NCBI GenBank assembly: GCA_013822765.1
Contig: PNKY01000005.1
Location: 186,001-250,000, forward strand
Direction of reading: 5' to 3'
Length of the DNA: 64,000 nt
Origin: Rhodospirillum sp.
Lineage (GTDB): Bacteria > Pseudomonadota > Alphaproteobacteria > Dongiales > Dongiaceae
Within the stretch, counting starts at the first letter, position 1. Each line of letters opens with the position of its first letter. Below the pieces are notes generated by a model, which was not told the DNA's origin, did not search any database, and worked only from the letters and a program-made list of their open reading frames with translations. This document shows positions 2,766 to 6,466 of this stretch, in pieces. The position numbers and the translations under genes are program-made.

Positions 2766-3389
2766 CTAGCCCCTGCCCTCTTGCGCCAGTGCGCGCTTCA
2801 CGGCCGGGCGCTCGTGCATGCGCGTGCGGTGGTCGTGCACCTTGGGGAAGCGCTTCGGATCGAGGCCGTCCGCCTCCATCCAGTCGGACAGCGTGAACAG
2901 ATACGGGTCGCAGATCGAGTACGCCTCGCCCATCACCCACGGGCCCTTGAACATCTCGCGCTCGATCAGCTCGAAGCAGGCGCCCACGGTCTCGGGCACC
3001 TTGCGTTTCATGTCGTCGAACGAGGATTGCTCGTTGGCCCAGCGGTAGCCGCGCATGCGGTGGGCGTGAGCGACGTGCACCGTTGCGCACAGATAGGCGT
3101 TGAAGGACTGCACCTGCGCGTACGCCCAGGCATCGTCGAACGGCGCCAGCTTCGCTTTCGGAAAGCTCTGCGCGATGAAGGTGAGGATTGCCGGGTTCTC
3201 CGTCAGCACGCCACGATCGGTGGCCAGCGCGGGCACGCGAGCCTTCGGGTTGATCGCGAGATATTCCGGCTTGCGCTGGTCACCCGCGGCTGTGTCGACG
3301 CGATGGCCAGTATACTCGGCACCGGCCTCTTCGAGTGCGATGTGCGAGGCCAGCGCGCAGCTGCCGGGCGCGTAGAACAACTTCAACAT
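2766..3389 (-). CDS. Glutathione S-transferase, beta-class-like
   Basis: A 207-aa protein with an N-terminal thioredoxin-like domain (MLKLFYAPGSCALASHIALEEAG) and an all-helical C-terminal domain. The Cys at position 11 corresponds to the Cys of beta-class GSTs. The segment NPKARVPAL carries the cis-Pro, and ENPAILTFIA is the usual glutathione-contact region. It probably conjugates or reduces small electrophiles with glutathione in the cytosol. The track extends upstream, but ATG 3389 has GGAGGA just before it. It follows the agmatine-deiminase-like gene by 19 bp on the same strand, so the two probably form an operon. Confidence 0.85.
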   Translation of the reverse strand: MLKLFYAPGSCALASHIALEEAGAEYTGHRVDTAAGDQRKPEYLAINPKARVPALATDRGVLTENPAILTFIAQSFPKAKLAPFDDAWAYAQVQSFNAYLCATVHVAHAHRMRGYRWANEQSSFDDMKRKVPETVGACFELIEREMFKGPWVMGEAYSICDPYLFTLSDWMEADGLDPKRFPKVHDHRTRMHERPAVKRALAQEGRG

Positions 3390-3408: not shown

Positions 3409-4443
3409 TCAGGGCTTGACGATAGTGCCGACCGGCTGCGGCAAGGTGAAGGCGTGGATGCCGCCACCGCCATAGGCGAGCTCGAGCGCGGGGATCTGCA
3501 CCACCTCGCGCTTGGGGAACAGCCTGGTCATCACGTCGAACGCCTTGCGGTCGTTGGCGCCGTCGTCGAAGGCCGGCATCACGATGCCGTCGTTCGGCAT
3601 GTAGAGATTGACATAGGACAACGCGAGCCGCTTGCCCTCCGGGTCGAACAAGGGCCGCGGCTGCTCGACCTCCACCACATCGAGTGTCTGGCCCTTGGCG
3701 TTGCGCGCGGCTTTCAGGCGCTGGATGTTGTCGGTGAGAATCTTGTGGTTCGGATCGGCCGGATCGGCGCAGCTCAAGGCCAGCACAGTACCCGGCCGCA
3801 CGAAGCGCGCGACATTGCCGATCTGGCCGCCAGTCTGGTCGTCCTGCAGACCTTCGCCAAGCCAGATCACCTGCTGCACACCGAGATATTCGATCAGCAC
3901 CTCTTCGACCTGCTCGCGCGTCATGTCGGGGTTTCGGTTGGTATTGAGCAGGGTCGCTTCGCTCGCGATCACCGTGCCCTCGCCGTCCACGTCGATGCCG
4001 CCGCCTTCCAGCACGAGATTGTGCGAATAGGCTTTCATCTCGAGATGCTTCAGGATCTCTCCCGCTACCTTGGCGTCGCGCTCGTGGTCCTCGTAGCGGA
4101 AGCCCCAGGCGTTCCAGCGCCAGGTGACGCCGGCGACACCCTTCGCCTTGTTCATCAGGAAGGTCGGGCCGTAGTCGCGTATCCAGCAATCGTCGTGCGT
4201 CAGCGACACCTGCGCGACGCCGTTGGCGGTGAGCAGCGAGACCTCCGCCACGTTCTTCGGCTTGGTGACGATGGTGACCGGCTCGAACCGCGCGATGGTG
4301 TTGGCGATTTCGGCGACGACATCGCGAGCGCCATCCAGATGCTCGCCCCAGGTCTCCGACCGGCTTGGCCAAGCCATCCAGCATCGCTCGTGTGGCACCC
4401 ATTCGGCCGGCATTGAAAAGCCGTCGGCCAACGGATTGCTCAT
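3409..4443 (-). CDS. Agmatine deiminase family protein lacking catalytic residues
   Basis: A full-length (344 aa) homologue of agmatine deiminase, the enzyme that converts agmatine to N-carbamoylputrescine. The fold markers are intact: WIRDYGPTF (D90), EGGGIDVDGEGT (E146) and LLNTNRNP. The three core catalytic positions are changed. The usual GHxD motif reads TGGQIGNVARF (His to Gln207, Asp to Gly209). The nucleophile motif GGGxIHC reads GGGGIHAFT (Cys to Ala331). I checked these codons on the DNA strand. The ORF has no stop or frameshift, so it looks like a maintained pseudoenzyme rather than a decaying gene. It is upstream of, and probably co-transcribed with, the GST. Confidence 0.85.
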   Translation of the reverse strand: MSNPLADGFSMPAEWVPHERCWMAWPSRSETWGEHLDGARDVVAEIANTIARFEPVTIVTKPKNVAEVSLLTANGVAQVSLTHDDCWIRDYGPTFLMNKAKGVAGVTWRWNAWGFRYEDHERDAKVAGEILKHLEMKAYSHNLVLEGGGIDVDGEGTVIASEATLLNTNRNPDMTREQVEEVLIEYLGVQQVIWLGEGLQDDQTGGQIGNVARFVRPGTVLALSCADPADPNHKILTDNIQRLKAARNAKGQTLDVVEVEQPRPLFDPEGKRLALSYVNLYMPNDGIVMPAFDDGANDRKAFDVMTRLFPKREVVQIPALELAYGGGGIHAFTLPQPVGTIVKP

Positions 4444-4545: not shown

Positions 4546-6333
4546 CTACTGGCCGACCTTCTTGAGCGGAAGGTCAAGCCTGATACTCAGTTCCTTCAGG
4601 CGTGCCGGCGGCACTTCCGTCGGCGCCTGCATCAACAGGTCCTCCGCCCGCTGATTCAGCGGGAAGGCAATGACTTCGCGGATATTCTTCTCGTCCGCCA
4701 ACAACATGACGATGCGGTCGATGCCCGGCGCCGAGCCGCCGTGGGGCGGTGCGCCGAACTTGAAGGCATTCAGCATGCCGCCGAACTTGTTCTCGACCTC
4801 GCTGGCCGGATAACCGGCAATCTCGAAGGCCTTGTACATGATCTCCGGCAGATGGTTGCGGATCGCGCCCGAGGACAGCTCGACGCCGTTGCACACGATG
4901 TCGTACTGGAACGCATTGATGGTCAGCGGATCTTTATTCAGCAGTGCGTCCATTCCGCCCTGCGGCATGGAGAACGGGTTGTGGCTGAACTCGATCTTCT
5001 TGAGCTCCTCGTTGTACTCGTACATCGGGAAGTCGACGATCCAGCAGAACTCGAACCGCTTGGAATCGATCAGCTGCAGCTCCTCGCCCAGGCGGGTGCG
5101 GACCGTGCCGGCGAACTTGGCCGCGACGTCCTTCTTGTCGCAGGCGAAGAACACGGCATCGCCGTCCCTGGCGCCGCTCGCGGCCCTGATGGCGGCGACG
5201 CGCGCCTCGTCCAGGTTCTTGGCGATCGGACCCTTGGCACCACCGGCCTCATAGATGATGTAGCCGAGACCGCCGGCGCCCTGCGAGCGGGCCCACTCGT
5301 TCAGCTTGTCGAAGAAGCTGCGCGGCTTCGAGCCGGCGCCGGGCGCGGGAATCGCGCGCACGATCGCGCCGCCGTCGATCGCCTTGGCGAAGATGCCGAA
5401 GCCGGAGCCGCGGAAAGGCTCGGTCACGTCGGCGATCACGATCGGGTTGCGCAGGTCGGGCTTGTCCGAGCCGTATTTCAGCATCGACTGTTCGAACGGG
5501 ATGCGCGGGAACGGCAAAGACGACACCTTGCGCTCCCCGGCGAATTCCTCGAACACGCCGTGCAACACAGGCTCGATGGTGTTGAAAACGTCTTCCTGGG
5601 TGACATACGACATCTCGAAATCGAGCTGGTAGAACTCACCCGGCGAGCGGTCGGCGCGGCTGTCCTCGTCGCGGAAGCAGGGCGCGATCTGGAAATAACG
5701 ATCGAAGCCGGCGACCATCAGCAGCTGCTTGAACTGCTGCGGCGCCTGCGGCAGCGCGTAGAACTTGCCGGGATGCAAGCGCGCCGGCACCAGGAAGTCG
5801 CGCGCGCCTTCCGGCGAGGACGAGGTCAGGATCGGCGTCTGGAACTCGGTGAAGCCGGACTCGATCATGCGGCGGCGGATCGAGGAGATCACGCGCGAGC
5901 GCAGCACGATGTTGGCGTGCACGCGGTCGCGGCGCAGATCGAGGAAGCGGTAGCGCAGGCGGATTTCCTCGCCGGCATCCTCGTCGCTGTTGACCTGCAG
6001 CGGCACCAAGTCCGATACCGACTGGATGGTGTAGTCGGTGATCTGCAACTCGATCTCGCCGGTCGGCAGCTTGGGGTTGGCAGTCTCGGCCGGGCGCTTC
6101 ACCACCTTGCCGGTGACGGTGACGACGCTCTCGACTCGGGTCTGCTCGACCGACTTGAACAGCGGCGAGGAGACGTCGAGCACGCACTGGGTGAGGCCGT
6201 AGTGGTCGCGCAGGTCGATGAAGACCAGATTGCCATGATCGCGCTTGCGATGGACCCAGCCGGAGAGCCGGACCTGCTGGCTCACATCGGCCATTCGGAG
6301 CGCGCCGCAAGTGTGCGTGCGGTAGGCGTGCAT
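4546..6333 (-). CDS. aspS: Aspartate-tRNA ligase
   Basis: A 595-aa class II aminoacyl-tRNA synthetase of the bacterial AspRS type. It has an N-terminal OB-fold anticodon-binding domain ([21 protein letters not shown]). Motif 2 is in the [19 protein letters not shown] region, a GAD insertion domain lies in the middle, and motif 3 is GIDRIVMLL near the C-terminus. It charges tRNA-Asp in the cytosol and, as in many alphaproteobacteria, may also charge tRNA-Asn. The track starts at 6378; ATG 6333 ([10 protein letters not shown]) with GAGGAA upstream is the better start. It is divergent from rnd. Confidence 0.97.
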
Positions 6334-6466
6334 GGCGAATTTCCTCAAAGATTCCAAGGTTTCGGCGGGAGAAGCCATGGAAAGCCGGGCTTTGTCAAGG
6401 CTGGCCCGGAATGGGCCATTCCCCTGCCCTTTTCAGACTCCGGCAAACCCGCTATAGCATCGTTCA

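Follow-up and report, generated by a model that had tools for sequence, protein, structure and literature searches.

Agmatine deiminases (AgDs) act through a covalent mechanism in which Cys366, the nucleophile, forms a catalytic triad with His224 and Asp226; in the plant enzyme, Asp220 holds the terminal amine of agmatine and Asp226 binds the guanidine (PMC6447857, whose Medicago numbering is used here for these and other canonical residues). Non-catalytic proteins with the pentein fold also have been described. eIF6 has a structural role, and such a role is suspected for MRB11870 of kinetoplastids, with a catalytic role left open (PMC3820961). In trypanosomes, the AdoMetDC prozyme and a dead deoxyhypusine synthase paralogue activate their live paralogues (PMC5201418). 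A literature search for AgD pseudoenzymes, covering open-licence papers only, found no paper, and an earlier description is possible.

Loss of the catalytic residues

The window (the whole 64,000-nucleotide stretch of DNA analysed here) encodes an AgD-like protein of 344 amino acids on the minus strand (3409..4443). The gene lies between aspS (4546..6378, minus strand), which is upstream across a 102-nt gap, and a glutathione S-transferase (GST) gene that begins 19 nt downstream (2766..3389, minus strand, best start 3389). A sigma-70 promoter scan found no site. The protein is a full-length match to PF04371 (PAD_porph; residues 11-337, E 4.7e-110, 368.2 bits against a gathering score of 25), and its nearest solved structures are plant agmatine deiminases (E 5e-72). 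It falls under both NCBIfam AgD cut-offs, scoring 327.1 bits against 381.8 for TIGR03380 and 334.6 against 483 for NF010070.

The first-pass annotation had described an intact gene with the motifs WIRDYGP, EGGG, GGQIG and GGGGIHAFT, in which the active-site Cys, His and Asp were replaced by Ala, Gln and Gly. The reading frame is indeed intact, and the two catalytic loops read TGGQIGN and GGGGIHAFT. Alignment with the Arabidopsis AgD (AtAIH) and with 151 canonical AgDs, all of which have Cys366, confirmed the three replacements: the nucleophile is Ala331 (C366A; codon 3451..3453), the general acid is Gln207 (H224Q; 3823..3825), and the triad Asp that binds guanidine (PMC6447857) is Gly209 (D226G; 3817..3819), all on the minus strand. 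Leu334-Pro335 (3439..3444, minus strand) replaces Gln369-Gln370.

The substrate-side residues, said earlier to be kept, are kept only in part. WIRDYGP (4165..4185, minus strand) supplies Trp91, Arg93 and Asp94 (Asp90 in this protein), EGGG (3997..4008, minus strand) supplies Glu162, and Trp125, Asp218 and His365 also are retained. From the agmatine-binding set, however, Asp220 is lost (Gln203; 3835..3837, minus strand), as is Asp226. With both aspartates gone, canonical agmatine binding is unlikely, and the alignment thereby weakens agmatine as a candidate for the retained ligand. Among the 151 canonical AgDs, 44 positions reach a conservation of 90% or more; the protein differs at four of them (H207Q, D209G, C331A and Q335P), all in the two catalytic loops. 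Since the canonical set was itself defined by the triad columns, their change carries no independent significance, and it is the unchanged state of the remaining conserved positions in the alignment that is the independent statistic.

An AlphaFold2 model of the protein (pLDDT 97, pTM 0.93) superimposed on the Arabidopsis AgD 3h7c with a TM score of 0.96 and has the pentein fold, a five-fold beta/alpha propeller. The fold thus is predicted to be intact, and the residues and the model together support the earlier suggestion that catalytic residues were lost while the fold was retained.

Orthologues, history and selection in the Dongiaceae

Counts of orthologues and losses rest on 17 Dongiaceae genomes, one per species, each of which has at least one PF04371 gene. 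In the genome of the window (5.8 Mb, 97.7% complete, genus of Dongia deserti) the gene described above is the only one, so there is no hidden active AgD partner copy; several relatives that are 99-100% complete likewise carry the pseudo-copy alone. Five genomes (G006, G008, G010, G015 and G016) have, as a second copy, a canonical AgD from a different subfamily. The orthologous AgD gene adjoins aspS, on its downstream side, in all the Dongiaceae genera described below, whether live or degenerate, and likewise adjoins aspS in Pelagibius and one further, related genome of the Rhodospirillales. This shared position indicates that the copies are orthologues at one locus; the conserved aspS neighbour itself gives no hint of function. 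The GST gene, which the first-pass annotation had placed in an operon with the AgD gene, does lie close by, but the pairing is limited to three Dongia genomes and is absent from the fourth Dongia genome and from every other genus. A regulatory link to GST therefore is unsupported, and GST as a functional partner was rejected because the pairing is not conserved.

Cys366 is absent from all 14 complete orthologues in five Dongiaceae genera, and every one of their reading frames is intact. Together with a fragment at a contig end (G016), the pseudo-AgD was found in 15/15 genomes of these genera. At the His-Asp-Cys positions the orthologous locus reads Q-G-A in three of the four Dongia genomes (g1) and Q-A-S in the fourth; Q-A-S in genus g7; H-E-S, H-E-A or H-Q-S in g6; R-D-A in g2; and R-D-P or R-D-A in g4. 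The sister genera g3 and g5 have the canonical H-D-C at the aspS-linked locus. Sharing of the replacements within a clade, which had been raised as a possibility, is thus seen exactly in three of the four Dongia genomes and as absence of the Cys in all five genera, and close relatives that uniformly keep Cys and His were not found. Each of the other three Dongia orthologues comes from an independent assembly and shows identical or related replacements (QGA, QGA and QAS), which speaks against chance or error. Among 399 genomes drawn from the phylum, none outside the Dongiaceae yielded another close relative of the dead clade, and among the best-scoring PF04371 matches outside the family in that draw, those whose motif was read all retain the Cys.

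When the catalytic columns were left out of the AgD tree, clade A (g1, g6 and g7; 11 rows) and clade B (g2 and g4; 3 rows) each received support of 100/100. Clades A and B as a single clade were neither recovered nor rejected (p-AU 0.35); the AgD tree alone is compatible with either a single or a double loss in the Dongiaceae. The aspS tree grouped A and B apart from g3 and g5 (support 93/90), and Gly205, Leu334 and Pro335 are derived residues common to both clades and absent from canonical Dongiaceae. The simplest reading of these patterns would be that the Cys was lost once, before clades A and B diverged, and that the His and Asp decayed separately afterwards. Because two sister genera have a canonical enzyme at the same locus, it was probably the sole AgD copy that underwent conversion in place, with no duplication involved.

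Trp91, Asp94, Trp125, Glu162 and Asp218 are invariant in the 14 orthologues of clades A and B, and Arg93 likewise is invariant in both clades. The lost catalytic positions differ among clade members (S/A, H/Q and E/G/A/Q). Such free variation speaks against the idea that a new catalytic centre was fixed at those positions; variable lost positions beside an invariant pocket wall and floor fit a non-catalytic role of the pocket or fold better. We also observed that Cys86 (4186-4188) and Cys225 (3769-3771) are invariant in 11/11 clade A members and are Ser or Thr/Ala in clade B and in canonical Dongiaceae.

Pairwise codon-model estimates of dN/dS within Dongia were 0.037-0.049 for the pseudo-AgD, close to those of the neighbouring aspS (0.026-0.037); rnd and GST gave 0.036-0.051 and 0.062-0.158, respectively. 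Across pairs from clades A and B the values were about 0.02-0.08, with a maximum of 0.083. In large parts of both clades, dN was approximately 2-4 times that of aspS, versus 1.2 times in the one canonical species pair used for comparison, which suggests that constraint is mildly relaxed. As an AgD homologue that lacks the conserved catalytic residues and is maintained by selection, the window protein qualifies as a pseudoenzyme.

Other Cys-less agmatine deiminases

A survey of PF04371 comprising 186 aligned proteins, mostly alphaproteobacterial, showed that degeneration extends to other lineages as well: a clade of marine Rhodospirillaceae (Q-N-C, Q-N-S and H-D-S), single families with Q-S-R, H-S-A, R-G-R and H-G-H, and a distant lineage with N-D-A. 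Of the 26 Cys-less proteins, 19 have Leu-Pro where Gln369-Gln370 otherwise stands; none of the 158 Cys-bearing ones does. A single clade of all the tested Leu-Pro proteins (Dongiaceae, L199 and L201) was ruled out (p-AU 0.00016), and every pairing of the three was rejected too (p-AU 0.016, 0.00024 and 0.0017). The Leu-Pro mark therefore arose at least three times among the lineages tested; L201 is a long branch, which makes its exact position in the tree unsure. The f34 pair (L210 and L211), outside the tested set, would be a candidate for a fourth origin.

Judging from these trees, Cys-less AgDs arose several times in the Alphaproteobacteria, and this is a new finding. A bolder proposal is that vertically inherited AgDs of this class repeatedly gave rise to the same non-catalytic protein, the loss of Cys being coupled to a convergent change of Gln-Gln to Leu-Pro that would remodel the dead site for a shared binding or signalling function; we regard this as possible but rather doubtful.

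In the marine Rhodospirillaceae proteins (L078, L079, L081, L082, L091, L092, L102 and L105), most have His changed to Gln and Asp to Asn, with the Cys kept or replaced by Ser. A TenA/THI-4 gene follows at all eight loci, and at six the preceding gene encodes a class III nucleotide cyclase domain. The H-G-H proteins, with His for the nucleophile, come from one alphaproteobacterial family (L202 and L204) and are encoded beside an SDR gene, near a branched-chain transporter permease. In many Alphaproteobacteria (L053, L058, L068, L069, L071, L074, L104 and others), a cluster of ridA, sometimes gdpd, a femAB-like gene and HIT flanks a live or dead AgD. As a trait shared by independent Cys-less lineages these surroundings were rejected; they also accompany canonical AgDs, so the neighbourhood is ancestral and not informative.

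Polyamine genes and the role of the protein

AguB (N-carbamoylputrescine amidase, TIGR03381) scored over its cut-off in 14 of the 17 Dongiaceae genomes, including seven whose sole PF04371 gene is the pseudo-AgD. A tie between loss of the Cys and loss of AguB was rejected on that account; G011 and G004 hold a pseudo-AgD without an AguB over the cut-off. In the genome of the window, an intact AguB gene (L246:9287-10192; 447 bits against a cut-off of 410) neighbours potFGHI-like genes for putrescine uptake; as this genome has no intact AgD, the second step of the agmatine pathway stands there as an orphan. A second AguB-like gene there (L250:7383-8297; 376 bits) immediately follows a gene of the homoserine O-succinyltransferase family and has no AgD nearby. 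Judged by coordinates, four of the five genomes with a canonical second AgD have a second AguB-like gene beside it. SpeA over its cut-off and PvlArgDC were absent from all 17 genomes, those of the canonical genera included. Agmatine thus is probably not a biosynthetic intermediate in the Dongiaceae, and a tie between the AgD loss and arginine decarboxylase was rejected, since the decarboxylases are missing in canonical genera too. OKR_DC decarboxylases occur in 6/17 genomes, including that of the window, with no clear pattern, and agmatinase-family ureohydrolase genes (PF00491) in 17/17.

We hold with moderate confidence that the protein descends from a vertically inherited AgD that became, at its original locus, a maintained non-catalytic pentein in the common ancestor of five Dongiaceae genera. 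The nucleophilic Cys would have been lost first, along with the changes of Asn/Asp222 to Gly and of Gln369-Gln370 to Leu-Pro, an order that we infer; His224 and Asp226 then would have drifted independently from lineage to lineage. Asp220, which binds the amine, is gone from both clades, whereas strong purifying selection still holds the fold, the entrance Trp pair (Trp91 and Trp125) and the acidic floor (Asp94 and Glu162). Residues lost clade-wide under strict purifying selection suggest that the protein probably took up a new, non-enzymatic job. The protein may use the preserved pocket to bind a small ligand, which is perhaps cationic, or it may bind a partner, and it could thus serve as a sensor or structural subunit. 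That the ligand-binding pocket is the working part of the protein is a tentative, almost evenly balanced proposal.

The first-pass annotation had left a binding or regulatory role side by side with another reaction, and we consider it likely that the protein is non-catalytic rather than a bearer of re-purposed chemistry. A different, non-covalent reaction on another substrate, run through Asp94, Glu162, His365 or the clade-specific Cys86 and Cys225, is the strongest rival, although an unlikely one. Within clade A the pocket acids, the Trp pair and His365 are invariant, the two cysteines could serve another chemistry, and pseudoenzymes with migrated residues or new chemistry have been reviewed (PMC10211241). 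Most g6 and g7 members also have Ser at position 366 and Cys two residues further on at 368, and g6 often has a Ser-His-Glu set. However, Ser366 is exchanged for Ala between sister species (G008, HEA; G012, HES), position 368 is Thr in Dongia, no single new polar centre is common to clades A and B, and AgDs act through a Cys nucleophile (PMC6447857).

We consider it less likely still that the protein is a prozyme-like activator or scaffold of another polyamine enzyme, for which AguB would be the first candidate. The wide retention of AguB, also where the pseudo-copy is the only PF04371 gene, and its place beside putrescine uptake genes in the genome of the window would suit such a role, as would the precedent of the two polyamine-pathway enzymes activated by dead paralogues in trypanosomes (PMC5201418). 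Those prozymes act on their own paralogue, though, and a live paralogue is absent from this genome and most relatives; in addition, the pseudo-AgD and AguB genes are unlinked, and G011 and G004 lack an AguB over the cut-off.

An agmatine deiminase that still works by an alternative route is highly improbable. It would account for the retained AguB in a genome with this one PF04371 protein, and two OKR_DC family decarboxylases might make agmatine, but the nucleophile, general acid, triad Asp and amine-binding Asp are all missing, and a covalent Cys mechanism deprived of the first three suggests that the protein has no deiminase activity. It is very likely that the protein is both dead as an agmatine deiminase and functional. 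A recent lesion, a dying gene or a sequencing error, which the faster rate relative to aspS might recall, is scarcely credible given 14/14 intact frames, dN/dS far under 1 and the same changes in independent assemblies; both the dN/dS values and the sharing of the loss across a clade led us to reject a lesion or error.

Conversion of an AgD in place to a non-catalytic pentein, if correct, would be an unusually clean case of a pseudoenzyme born other than by duplication, with live and dead orthologues at one locus in sister genera and graded intermediates of decay (HES, HEA, HQS, QAS, QGA, RDA and RDP). Annotation pipelines would tend to name these genes agmatine deiminase and to infer a working agmatine-to-putrescine route although its key residues are missing. 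With the convergent Leu-Pro mark, dead AgDs can be recognised simply from their sequence, and the mark gives a starting point for learning what replaces the old chemistry.

Among known systems, the window protein most resembles AguA (PF04371, TIGR03380; 3h7c, 6nib and 2jer). It shares the full-length fold (TM 0.96), 37-39% identity to plant AgD in structural alignment, the entrance Trp pair, Asp94, Glu162 and the R-D-x-G-P motif. Unlike AguA, it lacks Cys366, His224, Asp226 and Asp220, has Leu-Pro for Gln369-Gln370 and scores below both AgD cut-offs. Like the trypanosome prozymes, it is a dead relative of a polyamine-pathway enzyme that is kept by selection; there, a live paralogue is activated, whereas in the Dongiaceae it was probably the sole copy that underwent conversion, and a live paralogue is missing from most genomes. 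With eIF6 and MRB11870 it has in common the pentein fold, for which a structural rather than enzymatic role is known (eIF6) or suspected (MRB11870). Neither of these is a recent AgD derivative, and no sequence relation to them is shown here.
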